Shown here: one piece after another, positions 21,118-29,794 of the stretch
How the letters are laid out: each line of letters begins with the position of its first letter
How positions within the stretch are numbered: the first letter of the stretch is position 1
From: Ruegeria sp. AD91A
Lineage (GTDB): Bacteria > Pseudomonadota > Alphaproteobacteria > Rhodobacterales > Rhodobacteraceae
Direction: 5' to 3'
Length of the DNA: 64,000 nt
NCBI RefSeq assembly: GCF_003443535.1
Contig: NZ_CP031946.1
Span: 3,165,001-3,229,000 of the forward strand
Notes under the pieces: generated by a model
Databases searched by the model: none
What the model was told of the DNA's origin: nothing
Seen by the model: only the letters and a program-made list of their open reading frames with translations
Translations under genes and position numbers: made by a program

Positions 21118-22605
21118 ATGACAAAATTCATGTTTCGGACATTTGCATCGACCCTGGCCGTAGGGGCCAGCCTGCTTGCCACGCAGGCTTTGGCCAAGTC
21201 GGACATCACTATCGCGATGCAGCTTGAACCCCCGCATATGGATCCGACAAGCGCCGCAGCGCAAGCCATCGATTCGGTGGTCTATACTAATGTTTTCGAA
21301 GGCTTGACCCGCTTCATGGGCGATGGTTCGGTTGTGCCCGGCCTTGCCGAAAGCTGGGAGATATCCGAGGACGGTACGGTCTACACCTTCAAACTGCACG
21401 ACGGGGTGACTTTCCATGACGGCACGACCATGGATGCAGAGGATGTCAAATTCAGCCTTGATCGCGCGACCGCCGAAGACAGCGCGAATGCACAGAAGGC
21501 CCTGTTTGCCGGTATTGAAAACGTGGAAGCGACGGACCCGCTGACCGTCAAAGTCACCCTGTCAGAGCCAAACGGAAATTTCCTGTTCAACCTGGCTTGG
21601 GGCGACGCAGTAATCGTCGCGCCCGAGAGCATTGAAAGCATCAAGACCAATCCAGTTGGCACTGGCGCCTATACCTTTGGCAACTGGGTTCAGGGTGACA
21701 GCATCACCCTGAACCGAAACCCCAATTATTGGGGCGAACAACCTGCATTAGAGACTGCAACCTTCAAGTTCATCTCGGACCCAACTGCCGCTTTTGCCGC
21801 CATGATGGCCGAGGATGTCGACGTATTTGACAACTTCCCCGCGCCAGAAAACCTGCCTCAGTTCGAGGCCGACCCGCGCTTTCAGGTTTTGGTCGGTTCG
21901 ACCGAAGGCGAAACGATCCTGTCCACCAACAACAAGCAACCTCCGTTTGACAGTATTTTGGTTCGGCAGGCACTGGCACATGCCATCGACCGGCAGGCCA
22001 TCATCGACGGCGCGATGTTCGGCTATGGTACCCCGATCGGAACCCATTTTGCGCCGCATCATCCGGCGTATGTCGATCTGACTGGCAATTCGGCTTATGA
22101 CCCTGAAAAAGCAAAGGCGTTGCTGGCAGAGGCAGGATTCGAAAACGGGTTTGAGACCACGTTGCATCTGCCGCCGCCGTCTTATGCCCGCCGTGGGGGC
22201 GAAATCATAGCGGCGCAGTTGGCCGAGGTCGGCATCACTGCCGAGATCATCAATGTGGAATGGGCGCAATGGTTGGAAACGGTGTTCAAGGGCAAGGAGT
22301 TCGGCCTGACTATTGTCAGCCACACGGAGCCGATGGATATCGGCATTTATGCGCGCCCTGATTATTACTTCCAGTATGACAGCACGGACTTTCAGGCGCT
22401 GATGGACACGCTGAACACTACCACCGACCCCGAAGAACGCACCCGTTTGCTGGGTGAGGCACAGCGCCTTATTTCAAGCGACTATGTCAATGGGTACCTA
22501 TTCCAGTTGGCCAAGCTGGGCGTTGCGAAAGTCGGAGTTCAAGGCCTTTGGGAGAATGCGCCCACCGCCGCAATCGATCTGACTCAGATCAGCTGGTCTG
22601 AGTAA
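21118..22605 (+). CDS. peptide/opine-type ABC transporter substrate-binding protein
   Basis: A 495-residue class C periplasmic binding protein (SBP_bac_5). The signal peptide ends ATQALA-KS, then comes LEPPHMDPTSAAAQAIDSVVYTNVFEGLTRF, the family core LAESWEISEDGTVYTFKLHDGVTFHDG and NRNPNYWGE, with the usual two-lobed arrangement up to the C-terminus. GGGAG precedes the start. It is the first gene of an operon that also holds a ligand-gated channel, two permeases, a fused ATPase and an aldehyde dehydrogenase. The ligand is unknown; family members bind peptides, opines, glutathione or nickel chelates. Confidence 0.92.
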   Translation: MTKFMFRTFASTLAVGASLLATQALAKSDITIAMQLEPPHMDPTSAAAQAIDSVVYTNVFEGLTRFMGDGSVVPGLAESWEISEDGTVYTFKLHDGVTFHDGTTMDAEDVKFSLDRATAEDSANAQKALFAGIENVEATDPLTVKVTLSEPNGNFLFNLAWGDAVIVAPESIESIKTNPVGTGAYTFGNWVQGDSITLNRNPNYWGEQPALETATFKFISDPTAAFAAMMAEDVDVFDNFPAPENLPQFEADPRFQVLVGSTEGETILSTNNKQPPFDSILVRQALAHAIDRQAIIDGAMFGYGTPIGTHFAPHHPAYVDLTGNSAYDPEKAKALLAEAGFENGFETTLHLPPPSYARRGGEIIAAQLAEVGITAEIINVEWAQWLETVFKGKEFGLTIVSHTEPMDIGIYARPDYYFQYDSTDFQALMDTLNTTTDPEERTRLLGEAQRLISSDYVNGYLFQLAKLGVAKVGVQGLWENAPTAAIDLTQISWSE

Positions 22606-22666
22606 TAGTACAGCCTGCGCCGCGCTGGGCGGCCCGGCCTTCCATTGTGTCAGGGTGTTCTCACGC

Positions 22667-23737
22667 ATGTTCTTGCTCCACGCCATTCCCGTCTTGGTTT
22701 TAGGTGTTTTCCTGGTGTTCAGTTCTTCGGTCGCCGCCACGGCTCAGAATGTGTTGGGTGGGCGGCTGGATGCCCTGTCCGGAACGCCCGAGAACCCGTT
22801 GGATGTTGGGATCGGCATTCGCATCGATCAGATCACCGGTGTTGATCAAAAGGCTGAAAACTACGGCGCGGTTGTGGTCTTGCGGGTGGAATGGACCGAT
22901 CCTGCGTTGGCGTTTGATCCTGAGGAACAGCGGAGGGATGTCCGGGTCTTCAACCCACCCGACCTTGCCAATCATGCCGCAAGTATCGGTTCTGTTCTGC
23001 CGGCTTTTGTCATTCACAATCAGCAGTCCAACAAATGGATTCACGAATCCGCTGCATCCCTGCGATACGACGGACGGGTGCTGTATGTCGAAAAATCGTC
23101 TCTTACACTCCAGGCGCCACATTTTAATTTCCGAAAATACCCGTTCGACACGCAGGAGTTTCATTTCGAGGTCGTTTCGGTCTTTCCGTCTGAATACGTC
23201 ACTTACCATCCGTTGAACGAATTCTCTGGCCTCGGAGATCAGCTGGGCGAAGAAGAGTGGATTTTGAACAATGCCCGGTTGGAAACGTCCAGGGTCCTGG
23301 GGCTATCCGGCAAAGAAAGCGATCAGGTCGCGCTTGTTTTTGAAGGCAATCGACATCTGACATACTACGTCATTCGGGTTTTCCTTCCGATGCTTGTCTT
23401 GATCTCGGTCGGCTGGGCGCTGTTTTTTCTGGATGAATACCGCCGGAGGATCGAGATTGCAGGCGGCAACCTTCTGGTCTTTGTCGCGTTCAACTGGGCA
23501 ATATCCGCTGATCTGCCCAAGCTGGGTTATCTGACTTTTCTGGATTTTGTCCTTCAGTGCATGTTTCTGATGACCGGGGCGCTGATCGTGTTCAACGTCG
23601 CACTGCGACGACTGAAAGTGTCCGGCAAGGAGCGAACGGCGCGAACCCTGGACAACTATGCGATCAAATGGATCTATCCACTGGGGTATGCCGCGATCGT
23701 GGCCTATGCGGTTTCTGCTTTCCTTCTGGTGCCTTAG
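22667..23737 (+). CDS. prokaryotic pentameric ligand-gated ion channel (Cys-loop receptor homologue)
   Basis: A 356-residue protein (ATG 22667; GTG 22655 would add four residues) with a signal peptide ending near VAATAQ. The extracellular beta domain begins VGIGIRIDQI and has LRVEWTDPALAFD. The Pro-loop at about 152-166 (APHFNFRKYPFDTQEF) matches the GLIC/ELIC RYPFDSQ-type motif and, as in bacterial members, lacks the two Cys-loop cysteines. Four membrane helices follow: M1 about 234-255, M2 262-284 ending in SADLPKLGYLTFLDF, M3 289-312, M4 333-355. The intracellular M3-M4 loop is only about 20 residues. Bacterial members gate cation or anion flow on protons, amines or calcium; the ligand here is unknown. 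It sits between the binding-protein and permease genes of an ABC operon. Confidence 0.9.
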   Translation: MFLLHAIPVLVLGVFLVFSSSVAATAQNVLGGRLDALSGTPENPLDVGIGIRIDQITGVDQKAENYGAVVVLRVEWTDPALAFDPEEQRRDVRVFNPPDLANHAASIGSVLPAFVIHNQQSNKWIHESAASLRYDGRVLYVEKSSLTLQAPHFNFRKYPFDTQEFHFEVVSVFPSEYVTYHPLNEFSGLGDQLGEEEWILNNARLETSRVLGLSGKESDQVALVFEGNRHLTYYVIRVFLPMLVLISVGWALFFLDEYRRRIEIAGGNLLVFVAFNWAISADLPKLGYLTFLDFVLQCMFLMTGALIVFNVALRRLKVSGKERTARTLDNYAIKWIYPLGYAAIVAYAVSAFLLVP

Positions 23738-23777
23738 ACGCTGGACCCGCGCGTGATGTGACCCTAACGTGGTGCCA

Positions 23778-24725
23778 ATGCTCCGCTACGTCCTCAAACG
23801 ACTGATTTCCTTGCTTGTCAGCCTGGCCGTCGCCTCGGTGGTCATCTTCGCGGTGATCGAGGTCGCCCCGGGTGATCCGGCATCGTTCATGCTGGGCGTC
23901 AACGCGCAGGAGGACACGCTGGCCGCGTTGCGGGTCGAGCTGGGTTTGGATGGGTCCAAGATACAGCGGTACCTCAATTGGGTGGGTGGCATGCTGGGGG
24001 GCGATTTCGGCACCTCATACACCTACCGCACGCCAGTGTCGCAGATGATCGCGGACCGGCTTTGGGTGTCGTTACCCTTGGCACTTTACGCGCTGACTCT
24101 GTCCACCTTGATTGCCTTTCCGGCCGGAATCTATGCCGCTGCGCGTCGGGGCAAACCGGGGGACCTTGCAGTGATGGGGGCGACGCAGCTTGGGATTGCT
24201 GTGCCCAATTTCTGGTTTGCGATGATGCTTGTGCTGATCTTCGCTATCAACCTGCGCTGGTTCAATGCAGGCGGGTTTGTGGGTTGGGGCGACGGAGTGT
24301 TAGCGGGCCTGCATTCGCTGACCTTGCCTGCTGTGGCTCTTGCCCTGCCACAGGCTGCGATTCTGGCGCGTGTCATGCGGTCGGCATTGCTGGACATTCT
24401 GGGTGAGGACTTCATGCGTACGGCTCGGGCCAAGGGCCTGTCCCGCCGTCAGGCCCTTTGGCGGCACGGGGTGCGAAATGCGCTGATCCCGGTGATGACC
24501 ATCATAGGCTTGCAGTTTTCCTTCCTGCTGGCGGGATCGATCATCATTGAACAGGTTTTCTATCTGCCGGGTCTCGGGCGGCTGGTGTTTCAGGCCATTT
24601 CTGCCCGAGACCTCATCGTTGTGGAATCGGTCGTGATGCTGCTGGTCTTTGCCGTGATAACTGTAAATTTCCTTGTCGATCTTGCTTATGCGGCCGTGGA
24701 CCCAAGACTGAGAAGCAGGACATGA
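23778..24725 (+). CDS. ABC transporter permease, DppB type
   Basis: A 315-residue inner-membrane protein with six helices and the permease EAA-type segment EDFMRTARAKGLSRRQALWRHGVRNALIPV. The N-terminus MLRYVLKRLISLLVSLAVASVVIF is typical of DppB/OppB. ATG 23778 is chosen over GTG 23769. It pairs with the DppC-type permease that follows through an ATGA overlap. Confidence 0.92.
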   Translation: MLRYVLKRLISLLVSLAVASVVIFAVIEVAPGDPASFMLGVNAQEDTLAALRVELGLDGSKIQRYLNWVGGMLGGDFGTSYTYRTPVSQMIADRLWVSLPLALYALTLSTLIAFPAGIYAAARRGKPGDLAVMGATQLGIAVPNFWFAMMLVLIFAINLRWFNAGGFVGWGDGVLAGLHSLTLPAVALALPQAAILARVMRSALLDILGEDFMRTARAKGLSRRQALWRHGVRNALIPVMTIIGLQFSFLLAGSIIIEQVFYLPGLGRLVFQAISARDLIVVESVVMLLVFAVITVNFLVDLAYAAVDPRLRSRT

Positions 24726-25537
24726 GCCGGAACCTGATCCTTGGAGCTTTGCTGTCGTCGCTGGTGGTTCTGGCCGCGTTGGTCTCGTTCGTCTGGACCC
24801 CCTACAACCATGCCGTGCTGAACATTCCCGATAAATTGCAGCCACCAAACGGGCAGCATTGGTTTGGAACCGATCATTTCGGCCGCGACATGTTCTCGAT
24901 GATCATGGTCGGTGCACGTACGTCGATTGCGGTGGCGCTGGTGGCCGTCGGCATCGGCATGGCACTTGGCGTTCCTCTTGGCCTGGCAGCGGCCGCGCGC
25001 AAAGGCTCATGGCTGGATGAGGTCATCATGCGTGGCAACGATCTGGTCTTCGCTTTCCCGTCACTGGTGATCGCCATCCTGATCACGGCAGTCTATGGCG
25101 CCGGAGCGATCAACGCCATTGTTGCGATCGGCATTTTCAACATCCCCGTCTTTGCCCGGATCACTCGCGGGGCAGCTTTGTCACTTTGGGAGAGAGAGTT
25201 CATCCTCGCCGCCCGTGTGTCGGGCAAAGGAGTGGCGCGGATATCAGCGGAACATATTCTGCCCAATGTCGCCAATCTGCTGATTGTGCAAGGGACCATC
25301 CAGTTCAGCCTTGGTATTCTGGCCGAAGCGGGACTGTCATATGTCGGCCTGGGCGCGCAGCCTCCGACGCCCAGCTGGGGCCGGATGCTGGCAGATGCGC
25401 AGACGATGGTCAGTTTTGCCCCGCATTTGGCTCTGATTCCGGGGCTGGCGATCATCGTTACAGTGCTGGGTCTGAACTTGCTGGGCGATGGTCTGCGCGA
25501 CTGGCTGGACCCTCGGATCAGGGTGGCGCGGGCATGA
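24722..25537 (+). CDS. ABC transporter permease, DppC type
   Basis: A 271-residue permease with an N-terminal helix, the DppC-type HWFGTDHFGRDMFSMIMVGARTSIAVAL and the EAA loop EREFILAARVSGKGVARISAEHILPNV. Overlaps the upstream permease and the downstream ATPase by four bases each, so the three are translationally coupled. Confidence 0.93.
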   Translation: MSRNLILGALLSSLVVLAALVSFVWTPYNHAVLNIPDKLQPPNGQHWFGTDHFGRDMFSMIMVGARTSIAVALVAVGIGMALGVPLGLAAAARKGSWLDEVIMRGNDLVFAFPSLVIAILITAVYGAGAINAIVAIGIFNIPVFARITRGAALSLWEREFILAARVSGKGVARISAEHILPNVANLLIVQGTIQFSLGILAEAGLSYVGLGAQPPTPSWGRMLADAQTMVSFAPHLALIPGLAIIVTVLGLNLLGDGLRDWLDPRIRVARA

Positions 25538-27132
25538 GTTTGTTGCAGATTGAAAACCTGTCGCTGATGATCCACGGAACACCGATCCTGAAACAGGTCA
25601 GCCTGTCCATTGCCCCTGGTCAGATCGCGGCCGTGACAGGTGAAAGCGGCTCGGGCAAATCGATGACCGCTTTGGCGGTGATGCGATTGCTGCCGCATGG
25701 GGCCAGCGTGGAAGGTGCGATCCGGCTGGACGGTCAGGATCTGCTGACACGGTCAGAATCCGATATGTGCACTTTGCGCGGTGCGGCCATGGGAATGGTG
25801 TTCCAGGAACCGATGACAGCGCTCAATCCGGTGAAAACCATCGGTGAACAGGTGATGGAAACGATCCTGATCCACAAGGCGATGCCCCAGCCTCAGGCCC
25901 GAACACGCGCCGAAGAGGTGCTGACCCGCGTCGGCCTGCTACCTGATCGGCTCCCCCTTTCACGCTACCCGCATGAGCTGTCCGGCGGGCAAAGGCAACG
26001 CGTGGTCATCGCCATGGCCATCGCTCTGCGCCCCAAGCTGTTGATCGCGGACGAGCCGACGACAGCGCTGGACGTCACGACACAGGCGCAGATCCTCGAC
26101 CTGCTCAAGGGTCTGGTGCGCGAATATGACATGGGGCTGCTGATGATCACCCATGATCTGGCCGTTGTCTCTGATATGGCGGATCAGATCACCGTCATGC
26201 GCCACGGAGAAGTGGTTGAAAGCGGGGCCACACAGCACCTGCTGCGTCACATGCAACACCCCTATTCCCGAATGCTGTTCGAGGCGTCTGGCCATCAGGT
26301 CACTTTGCCGGAACCCGCGCAACCACAAACGTTGCTGGAGGTAAGCCAAGTTGTCCGGGACTACCGCCTGCCCCGAAAAGGCCTGTTGGACGCGCCGCGC
26401 CATCACCGGGCAGTGGATGGTGTCAGTTTCTCCCTCAACCGGGGGGAGCGGTTGGGTTTGGTAGGTGAATCCGGATGTGGAAAATCGACCCTAACGAGGG
26501 CAATATTGGGCCTGGAGGACGTTCAGTCCGGCCAGATCCAACTGGGTGGTCAGCCGGTTTTCACTGGGCACAAACCCAACCTTGCAGTCCGCCGGAAGAT
26601 GCAGGTGGTGTTTCAGGATCCATATGGCAGCTTCAACCCCCGCCACCGTGTCGCGCGCCTGATCACCGAGCCTTTCCATTTGCTGGACACCCCGCCAACC
26701 GGATCAGAACGACAGGATCAGATATCTGAAATTCTGACGGCGGTCGGCCTCGGCCCCGACGACGCGGGCAAGTACATCCATGAGTTTTCGGGCGGGCAAC
26801 GACAACGGATCGCTATTGCACGCGCCCTGATCATTCGGCCCAAACTCATATTGTTCGACGAGGCGGTTTCGGCCCTCGATGTTTCGGTCCGTGCTCAGAT
26901 CCTCGATCTGCTCGCCGAACTGTGTGAAGCCTATGACCTGACCTATCTGTTCATCAGCCATGACCTGAGCGTTGTCCGCACGATCACCGACCGTGTGATG
27001 GTGATGCAGTCCGGGCGGATCGTTGAACAGGGTCAGACAAAGCAGGTGTTCGAAGACCCGCAGCACCTGTACACGCAAAGCCTGATTGCCGCTGCGCCCC
27101 AGTTGCCCGAGATAAGGCCACTGACGGCGTAA
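25534..27132 (+). CDS. fused dipeptide-type ABC ATP-binding protein (two nucleotide-binding domains)
   Basis: A 532-residue cytoplasmic protein in which DppD- and DppF-like domains are joined. Domain 1 (about 1-260) has Walker A GESGSGKS, signature LSGGQRQR and Walker [13 protein letters not shown]. Domain 2 (about 270-530) has [17 protein letters not shown] and [12 protein letters not shown]; the usual Glu after the Walker B Asp is conserved as DEA. ATG 25534 is set by the overlap with the upstream stop; the longer in-frame extension back to 25186 is a shadow inside the permease gene. Confidence 0.94.
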
Positions 27133-27165: not shown

Positions 27166-28617
27166 ATGACTCAGAAAACTTGGTTTGATCCCACCTTGTG
27201 CCTGATCGGCGGGCGCTGGACCCAAGCGGATACGGGCGACAGCCTGCCTTTGATCAACCCTTCAGACGGGACCGAGATTTGCCGAATCGCCCGAGGGTCC
27301 GAGGTGGATGTCGACGCGGCGGTCAAAGCTGCCCGATCTGCGTTGAAGGGTGATTGGGGGCGAAAGACGGCCTTGGAGCGCGGCCGTATCCTGACCCGGT
27401 TGGGCCAACTGGTGCAGGAACGGGTGGACGATCTGGCGCGGCTTGAGGCGATGGATGTCGGCAAACCGCTGACGCAGGCCCGGGCAGACGCGGTCGCCCT
27501 GGCGCGCTATTGCGAGTTCTACGGCGGTGCGGCGGACAAGGTGATGGGCGAGACCATTCCCTATCTCGATGGCTACACCGTCTATACCCTGCGCGAACCG
27601 CATGGGGTGACGGGCCATATCGTGCCCTGGAACTATCCGATGCAGATTATCGGGCGTTCGGTCGGGGCGGCGTTGGCCATGGGCAACGCATGTGTTCTGA
27701 AACCAGCGGAAGAGGCCTGCCTGACCGCGTTGGCCTTTGCCCATCTTGCGCAACAGGCCGGGCTGCCAGCCGGAGCATTGAACGTCGTGCCCGGTCTGGG
27801 GGCCGAGGCAGGCGCGGCGCTGTCCGGACATTCGGGTGTAAACCACATCTCGTTCACCGGTTCTGTTGCCACAGGGGCCCTTGTGCAGCAGGCGGCGGGA
27901 CGCAACGTGGTGCCCGTGACGCTGGAATTGGGCGGGAAATCCCCGCAATTGGTTTTTGACGATGCCGATCTGGATGCAGCGCTGCCGTTTCTGGTGAATG
28001 CGGGTGTCCAAAATGCGGGCCAGACCTGTTCCGCCTCATCTCGCATCCTGGTGCAGCGGGGCGTCTATGAGCAGGTCAGATCGCGCATGGCCAAGGCCTA
28101 TGAAGAACTGACCGTCGGGCCGGCGATGCAGGATCTGCGCGTTGGGCCGTTGATCTCGGACCGGCAGAGACAGATTGTCAGGGGCTTTCTGAAAACAGCC
28201 ACGGACCTGACTATCGCTGCGCAGGGGCAGATTGTCGATGACGCGCCAGAAACCGGAGCCTATGTCCGGCCCACTTTGTTCGCAGACGTGCCACCAGATC
28301 ATCAATTGGCACAGGCCGAGATTTTCGGCCCGGTTCAGGTTCTGATCCCGTTTGACACCGAAGAACAGGCTCTGACCATAGCGAATAGTACGGAATACGG
28401 CCTGGTCGCCAGCGTCTGGACGCGGGACGGTGCGCGACAGATGCGGTTGGCGAAAGCGCTGCACTCAGGTCAGGTTTTCATCAACAACTACGGTGCAGGC
28501 GGCGGCGTTGAACTGCCGTTTGGTGGGGTGGGAAAATCCGGCCATGGCCGCGAAAAAGGGTTCGAAGCTTTGTACGGCTTTTCACAGTTGAAGACAGTTG
28601 CCGCGTTTCACGGGTAA
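27166..28617 (+). CDS. NAD-dependent aldehyde dehydrogenase
   Basis: A 483-residue ALDH with catalytic Cys in NAGQTCSASSR, general base Glu in LELGGKSP, and IVPWNYPM and FTGSVATG in the NAD site. It begins 33 bases after the ABC ATPase with GGAGG upstream, so it is probably the last gene of the transport operon. It may oxidise an aldehyde derived from the imported compound, for example from an amine or amino-sugar; that is inference from position only. Confidence 0.9.
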   Translation: MTQKTWFDPTLCLIGGRWTQADTGDSLPLINPSDGTEICRIARGSEVDVDAAVKAARSALKGDWGRKTALERGRILTRLGQLVQERVDDLARLEAMDVGKPLTQARADAVALARYCEFYGGAADKVMGETIPYLDGYTVYTLREPHGVTGHIVPWNYPMQIIGRSVGAALAMGNACVLKPAEEACLTALAFAHLAQQAGLPAGALNVVPGLGAEAGAALSGHSGVNHISFTGSVATGALVQQAAGRNVVPVTLELGGKSPQLVFDDADLDAALPFLVNAGVQNAGQTCSASSRILVQRGVYEQVRSRMAKAYEELTVGPAMQDLRVGPLISDRQRQIVRGFLKTATDLTIAAQGQIVDDAPETGAYVRPTLFADVPPDHQLAQAEIFGPVQVLIPFDTEEQALTIANSTEYGLVASVWTRDGARQMRLAKALHSGQVFINNYGAGGGVELPFGGVGKSGHGREKGFEALYGFSQLKTVAAFHG

Positions 28618-28633
28618 CATTTACCCAGGCAGT

Positions 28634-28792
28634 TCAGATCAGCTTTGCTTCCAATGCGTGATTGCCCCAAATCTGTGATGTCCGCGTGGCAGAATGCCCA
28701 CTGAACCAACCTCCGACGACTTCGTCGGAAACCTTGGCGCTGGGGGGGAACTTTTGTCTGCCGCCGTCTGCCAGGATCACCAAGTCAAACTA
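28634..28792 (-). pseudogene. severed C-terminal part of the adjacent alpha/beta-hydrolase gene
   Basis: Directly after the amber codon at 28792-28790 the same frame stays open for 51 more codons to TGA at 28636-28634. It reads FDLVILADGG, then VVGGWFSGHSATR, which has the look of the end of an alpha/beta-hydrolase domain and includes a His suited to the catalytic triad. A single-base change (CAG or AAG to TAG) would account for the break. Either this is a nonsense-mutated gene or the amber is read through. Confidence 0.6.
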
Positions 28793-29794
28793 GACCCGAA
28801 CTGAATACGGCGCATTGATCCGGCCTGAATTCAGGTTGTACTTGTGCCAGTGTACCGGGCAGCTTAGGAAAACGACCTTGTTGAATTGTGCCCCCATCTC
28901 GGCGGCTTTCATGACGACATTGCAGCCGTGGCTGTGGGCAACCACATCGCAGCCGTGATAAGCCTCAAGATCTATCCAGTTTTTCAGGTGTTTGGCAGCA
29001 ATATGTCGGCCGCGGTCGGACCACCGGCCCTCCCATTCATAGTAGTTCCGCCCTGAAAAGATGTCGTTGCGATGCGGCTTGATGTAATTATGCAGATCTC
29101 CGACATGGGGATAGTACCATGTGGGGTCGGGATTGACTTCGAAGTGCGTGCCATGAACAAGAAGCAACCCCGGGACACCGGCTTTCTGTTGCGCGGGCGC
29201 CGTTGGAACCTTCGAACCCAGCGGGTCTGAAATCAGAGCGGACGACAACACAGTAAGCAAATCTTGCGAGAGCGGCTCCAACTGCGCCCAACGTGCCGTA
29301 AACACACCAAGCCAAAGACGTGGCGGAAAAGATTCCGGCGAATACAGTTTGAGGCACGAACTCAGTGCGGCAAGAGCAACAATTGAATCAGGGGCTGCCA
29401 GACCAAGCTTCAAAGCAGCGTCAATATGTTCGAGGTTCGGCTGTTCTTCTGCTGCTCTGATCGCCTCGAACAAACGTTGGTAATACCCCTCAGGCTCTGG
29501 CGAAGTAAGCAGGTCAACGGGCCTTAGGTCGCCGGGGCCAATAAAGAAACGCATGTATTCGTGGGCGGATATTTGGCGGTCGTCAATTGGTCGGAATCCG
29601 AGCATGACAAGCTGTTTGGACAGAACGGCATCGTCAGTTTCTTCCAAATCGCGGTCCAACAGGAAAAGGTCGCTGTCATTGTTTTCGGCTTGCAGAAACT
29701 GCGCGCGGGATATCAGGTATGCGGCGTAGGAAAAAAGTGAAAGCTCGTCTCGGGATCCGCCGGTTTCGTAGAAGTTCTTTGGTTCAAAAATCAT
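28790..29794 (-). CDS. alpha/beta-hydrolase-fold protein, truncated by in-frame amber codon
   Basis: A 334-residue cytoplasmic protein. Residues 1-205 are helical and not recognised. Residues 208-334 look like the first half of a lipase-type domain: LLLVHGTHF (oxyanion strand) and the nucleophile elbow VVAHSHGCNVV with Ser288. The protein stops after APYSVRV, before any catalytic His. The same frame continues with sensible sequence (see 28634-28792), so the intact product would be about 386 residues. It stands alone, convergent with the aldehyde dehydrogenase gene. Function unknown. Confidence 0.65.
   Translation of the reverse strand: MIFEPKNFYETGGSRDELSLFSYAAYLISRAQFLQAENNDSDLFLLDRDLEETDDAVLSKQLVMLGFRPIDDRQISAHEYMRFFIGPGDLRPVDLLTSPEPEGYYQRLFEAIRAAEEQPNLEHIDAALKLGLAAPDSIVALAALSSCLKLYSPESFPPRLWLGVFTARWAQLEPLSQDLLTVLSSALISDPLGSKVPTAPAQQKAGVPGLLLVHGTHFEVNPDPTWYYPHVGDLHNYIKPHRNDIFSGRNYYEWEGRWSDRGRHIAAKHLKNWIDLEAYHGCDVVAHSHGCNVVMKAAEMGAQFNKVVFLSCPVHWHKYNLNSGRINAPYSVRV

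Follow-up and report, generated by a model that had tools for sequence, protein, structure and literature searches.

The native roles of bacterial pentameric channels are largely open, the models GLIC, ELIC, sTeLIC and DeCLIC having been studied for structure. ELIC and nicotinic receptors have aromatic cages, with aromatic residues in loop C. For DeCLIC the accessible text describes a calcium site made up of E347 and E479-E481, activation of the channel by calcium depletion and a cation selectivity that is called anticipated (PMC9897478), and for sTeLIC the accessible part of a further report has aromatic amines binding at a vestibular site (PMC11988449). What of the genes beside such channels? 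Tasneem et al. 2004 (PMC549065), in the available text, reported that genes for prokaryotic ART-LGICs have stand-alone PBP-II genes in their neighbourhood, proposed that the two kinds of protein cooperate in function, and ascribed the patchy distribution of the channels to loss and transfer. That text, figure excluded, has 0 occurrences of ABC transporter and 0 of Silicibacter, and the available part of Jaiteh 2016 (PMC4795631) makes no mention of operon, periplasmic, genomic context, neighbourhoods, Ruegeria or Silicibacter. As far as the accessible open-licence literature goes, the neighbourhood of a channel and a PBP-II gene is already published, and no report of a channel within a whole importer operon or in an exchangeable slot was found in print. 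The systems of the available 2004 text have the channel beside a PBP-II gene, whereas at the locus described here it lies inside a complete importer operon, in a slot that is variable.

The locus is in a stretch of 64,000 nucleotides, here called the window, from Ruegeria sp. AD91A (contig NZ_CP031946.1, positions 3,165,001 to 3,229,000, forward strand). All the components of a peptide-type ABC import operon are present (Table 1): SBP_bac_5, two BPD_transp_1 permeases and ABC ATPase domains. SBP_bac_5 proteins we take to have the PBP-II fold. Importers of the Dpp, Gsi and Nik type, for peptides, opines or nickel, likewise have an SBP_bac_5 protein, two permeases and a double ATPase; the difference from them is that here the binding protein scores below every NCBIfam cut-off, and profiles give it no substrate class. 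Its nearest solved chains include 1uqw (YliB), 5u4o and 6hlx (AgaA), i.e., dipeptide-binding proteins. The original prediction, made from the letters of the window, had put a full Cys-loop-receptor homologue with KYPFDTQ between the binding-protein gene and the peptide-type permease genes, with gaps of 61 and 40 bases and no terminator, and all of this was confirmed, the homologue by Pfam, phmmer and coordinates. Neither gap folds better than its shuffles, and the distance from channel to permease B shortens to 31 bases if the latter starts at its GTG. Between the aldehyde dehydrogenase gene and pncB there is an ORF of 334 aa (window 28790-29794, minus strand) that has no Pfam or NCBIfam match and, among the compared loci, a relative only in L014 (45%).

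Table 1. Features of the channel-bearing importer operon, with positions in the window.
Feature	Position	Strand	Basis and remarks
Solute-binding protein SBP_bac_5, first cistron	21118..22605	+	495 aa; PF00496 E=3e-95
61-base gap, left edge of variable slot	22606..22666	.	no terminator-like site; folding z 0.96
Pentameric ligand-gated ion channel, sTeLIC/DeCLIC type	22667..23737	+	356 aa; ATG at 22667, stop ends 23737, frame intact
E64 codon, aligned to DeCLIC E347 (calcium site)	22856..22858	+	alignment; 49/49 invariant
E195-E197 codons (loop F), aligned to DeCLIC E479-E481	23249..23257	+	alignment; 49/49 invariant
W277 codon, M2, 16' by our count	23495..23497	+	in-slot W 49/49; out-of-slot F 9/9
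40-base gap, right edge of slot	23738..23777	.	no terminator-like site; folding z 0.47
ABC permease B, BPD_transp_1	23778..24725	+	Pfam; ATG 23778, possible GTG start 23769
ABC permease C, BPD_transp_1	24722..25537	+	Pfam
Double ABC ATPase, oligo_HPY tail	25534..27132	+	Pfam
Aldehyde dehydrogenase, subfamily not assigned	27166..28617	+	Pfam E=8.9e-155

To judge by its sequence, the second cistron encodes an intact pentameric ligand-gated ion channel, predicted to conduct as a homopentamer. Pfam finds Neur_chan_LBD (PF02931) at residues 42-180 (48.3 bits, cut-off 26, E=1.1e-12), so that the ligand-binding domain begins at residue 42, and residues ~1-26 are, on inspection only, signal-peptide-like. 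An alternative GTG start lies upstream at 22655; many close orthologues align from the ATG. With phmmer against solved chains, the best match is sTeLIC (6fl9; E=1.3e-77, residues 42-342); the DeCLIC entry 6v4a is at E=1.1e-72 and GLIC at ~1e-22. The alignments with sTeLIC and DeCLIC are continuous through M4, crossing the transmembrane part to residues 342-348, and YPFD is present, KYPFDTQ being residues 157-163. The cysteine pair of the eukaryotic Cys-loop receptors is absent, with 0 cysteines in residues 144-171, and the loop is of the bacterial Pro-loop type. Like sTeLIC, with which it has the loop F GDQLGEEEW in common, the protein is short and free of N-terminal extra domains, whereas DeCLIC, at 642 residues, has NTD1 and NTD2. 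GLIC and ELIC belong to the same superfamily at far weaker similarity. The host genome of the window has a second, distant pLGIC-like ORF, of 28% identity (L211:3418-4221, minus strand; G000 C1:2704917-2705720), which on inspection adjoins two mechanosensitive-channel-like genes.

Could the pairing of such a gene with an importer be chance? In a scan of one genome per species, which yielded 50 channel loci, the channel directly follows a binding-protein gene on the same strand in 44 (in one of these, L052, its frame is broken), with panB, panC and glpK to one side and pncB to the other in most. Within Ruegeria the binding protein is present in all of 54 genomes, the match in G437 being partial (residues 6-300), and the channel in 38; all 38 have it next after the binding-protein gene and in the same orientation, with 63-134 bases separating the aligned codons. 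Since the genus genomes and the per-species loci come from overlapping genome sets, their counts must not be summed. Of 49 in-slot loci, 43 have the permease within 77 bases of the channel, and in the other six something separates the two or the channel frame is broken. In the family sample, any channel match at all was found in 29 of 394 genomes and one of at least 44% identity in 17, of which 13 carry it in the slot, the frame being broken in two of these (G110, G296). The out-of-slot cases are G007 (internal stops and no binding-protein gene nearby), G207, G100 (on inspection, in the interval after a lepA-like gene) and G220 (a fragment, at the edge of its contig). In G213 there is a further copy away from the slot, next to two-component genes. 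All this is for a pLGIC domain that is rare in the class, found in five of 385 genomes, counting the window's own and one whose match falls below cut-off. The linkage is beyond chance, old and widespread, and with 38 of 38 a chance pairing is ruled out. The prediction that it would recur in other strains is thereby borne out; the amine-type ligand that channel and binding protein were supposed to have in common is the part that found no support. Among out-of-slot channels, that at L142:7965-9041 has as its neighbours, on the opposite strand, genes for a response regulator and a histidine kinase, and upstream a further receiver-domain gene.

Linked as it is, the channel is not needed by the importer. 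In 16 of the 54 Ruegeria genomes the binding protein is present and the channel absent, the interval there having a 339-aa protein (nine genomes), an opposite-strand SH3_3 gene of 108 aa (four) or no gene (three, among them G437). The 339-aa protein, which is on the same strand, has a signal-like start and has no Pfam or NCBIfam match, fills exactly the slot of the channel, e.g., at L118:4508-5527 and in eight other channel-less Ruegeria genomes. In R. pomeroyi DSS-3 there are three locus tags between SPO0098 (ATP-binding) and SPO0102 (panB), a number that would suit a binding protein and two permeases with no channel among them. A family audit took the 78 genomes of highest binding-protein score from the 240 of 394 that have the binding protein at E<=1e-150: the channel is in the slot in 13, fewer than 250 bases with nothing in them are found in 24, other genes in 25, and in 16 there is no permease B within the stretch examined, so that a permease gene follows without a channel between in 49 of the 78. 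Of the 25 slots with other genes, 17 have one or more ORFs of at least 100 aa on the opposite strand, seven an HDAC-like gene and six a cupin. An opposite-strand slot gene must, we infer, uncouple the permease genes from the binding-protein transcript, and the importer would then tolerate the uncoupling. Given the 16 Ruegeria genomes and the majority of the audited family genomes with other genes or none there, the slot is permissive, the channel in it is an accessory cistron, and the importer does without it.

Is it then no more than a passenger, with a tolerant insertion site after a highly expressed gene giving expression to a channel unrelated to the transporter? We regard this as possible, if somewhat doubtful. 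The 25 family slots with other genes, 17 of them with an opposite-strand ORF, are in its favour, as are the three to seven unrelated gene families that the slots hold, the 6.5-kb stretch carrying sarcosine-oxidase-like genes that parts channel from permease B in L025 and the cupin that follows the channel in L140. However, a pure passenger might move more than is apparent from the 13 of 17 family channels, two of them broken, that are in the slot, and in-slot signatures such as W277 are absent from the nine out-of-slot relatives compared. In Leisingera (L032-L034) an opposite-strand HDAC-like gene separates channel and permease. The nearest solved chain to this gene, in Leisingera and others, is HDLP (1c3r); it has no NCBIfam match and no acetylpolyamine amidohydrolase is among the best 60 of its 91 matches, and it was dropped as a clue to acetylated polyamines. 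As to the other slot genes, the insertion in L025 (9286-15501) also carries, by names given on inspection, an AraC/GlxA-like regulator, and the cupin at L105:3028-3432, as in other slots, passes the NCBIfam (R)-mandelonitrile lyase cut-off (171.9 bits against 140).

The history of the slot can be approached through two trees. In the first, a quick-method tree of binding protein plus permeases for 87 chosen rows, 50 with and 37 without the channel, presence of the channel changes at least 15 times, at least nine of these being forced by well supported branches, against a mean of 28.1 on shuffling. In the second, a quick-method tree, long branches flagged, of 49 intact in-slot channels against eight out-of-slot relatives, the in-slot channels form one clade (SH-aLRT 96). 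Channel distances correlate with flanking-gene distances (Mantel r 0.77, with 0 of 999 permutations as high); the two trees share 19 of 46 splits, and the channels change about three times faster. The simplest reading would be one entry into the slot, mostly vertical descent, and many losses or replacements. The intact copies are under purifying selection, since dN/dS in 16 chosen pairs is 0.028-0.140, that of the binding protein being 0.030-0.098. Descent may not have been wholly vertical: L140 has different partners in the channel and flank trees, which suggests at least one transfer, and in two pairs the channel has about a quarter to a fifth of the synonymous divergence seen in the binding-protein gene next to it (dS 0.16 against 0.66 for L013/L015, 0.12 against 0.60 for L016/L017), suggestive of exchange of the channel segment between strains by recombination. 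GC3 is lower in the channel than in permease B in 48 of 49 rows, by a mean of 0.063, a difference too small to serve as an argument for foreign origin.

What might the channel respond to? The residues that match the DeCLIC calcium site are also all kept in nine out-of-slot relatives, except for one residue in L142, and so they mark the larger family and not the in-slot clade; they could be structural. More particular to the slot are S144, present in 49 of 49 in-slot channels against two of nine out-of-slot relatives, and the tryptophan at 16', where sTeLIC has F. Cation selectivity is predicted, by homology. Cation-selective pLGICs have two rings of acidic residues at the cytoplasmic mouth of the pore; here position 263, which corresponds to a D of sTeLIC and an E of DeCLIC, is acidic in all 49 (E in 46, D in three), 256/257 is acidic in nearly all and 259 is basic. 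In 48 of the 49, unlike in ELIC, loop C (residues 203-222) contains no F, Y or W; all 49 have G212, G215 and S218. Neither does the vestibular amine site of sTeLIC directly rescue an amine reading, as its W75 is not conserved, being L111 here with W in none of the 49, though its Y104 is kept as Y140 (Y in 44, F in five). From the glutamates together with the aromatic-free loop C, the channel would be one for cations that senses the periplasm, is braked by calcium and binds its ligand at a polar site other than a cage, and on these residues a calcium-sensitive cation channel is favoured over an ELIC-like amine receptor. The latter was rejected as the leading reading for its loop C without aromatics and for an aldehyde dehydrogenase that is not assigned to a subfamily. 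The suggestion that this enzyme would fit an amine-derived compound finds no backing, for its best NCBIfam matches (phenylacetaldehyde, aminobutyraldehyde, betaine aldehyde) all fall far short of the cut-offs and indicate no ligand; its nearest solved chain, 4ywe, is named only as a putative aldehyde dehydrogenase.

The explanation to which we incline, as probable but with appreciable reserve, is that of a calcium-shut cation channel of the sTeLIC/DeCLIC type that entered the slot once and is a co-transcribed accessory of the operon. After the entry of an ancestor between the gene for the binding protein and that for the first permease, the channel would have been inherited mostly with the operon, though lineages repeatedly lost it or had unrelated genes take its place. 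It would, as we infer, share a transcript with the binding protein and so be made when the importer is made, its ligand-binding domain facing the periplasm. Calcium between subunits, at E64 of one and E195-E197 of the next, would hold it shut; a periplasmic cue would open it, cations would enter and the membrane potential would fall. It would be an accessory of the operon outside the transport cycle. With seawater calcium at ~10 mM, a channel shut by calcium and nothing else might open only rarely.

Would the cue be the molecule that the binding protein takes? That the channel opens on this molecule, coupling nutrient uptake to a rapid ionic signal, e.g., for motility, we think unlikely. Linkage kept across many genera speaks for it, the invariant residues of loop C suggest a conserved cue within the clade, and cooperation of PBP-II and channel was proposed in general terms in the available text of the 2004 survey (PMC549065). 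Against it are the Ruegeria genomes with the binding protein alone, the filling of the same interval by unrelated genes, often on the opposite strand, and the aromatic-free loop C. Nor are operons with the channel set apart from those without by any residue of the binding protein, the permeases or the aldehyde dehydrogenase: the strongest differences between the states are 0.65 at Q57 of the aldehyde dehydrogenase, where label shuffles reach 0.63 at most, and 0.55 at I13 of permease B, where they reach 0.56 (in a wider set, 0.50 against 0.35), and the shuffles ignore relatedness. These same points, with the 49 family genomes lacking a channel before the permease, leave the amine-type common ligand of the original prediction unsupported, and most likely the channel does not read the ligand of the binding protein through an amine cage. 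A similarly improbable variant is a nutrient-reporting pair, in which the imported molecule opens the channel or relieves its calcium block for a fast change in membrane potential; if that were true, channel-less strains would retain uptake and lose the electrical report. Least plausible is a safety valve, ionic or osmotic: cations would leak through it under stress to the envelope or from salt, on sensing of divalents or pH, and the operon site would serve for expression only. The kinship to sTeLIC and DeCLIC and the conserved calcium site would suit this reading, but it sits poorly with a conserved neighbourhood (panB, panC, glpK, pncB) without stress genes.

The slot is a warning against inferring function from gene order alone. 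The channel is common in Ruegeria, a marine genus, although few genomes of the class have its domain. With closely related strains that have and that lack a selected channel at one defined place, a natural experiment is ready.
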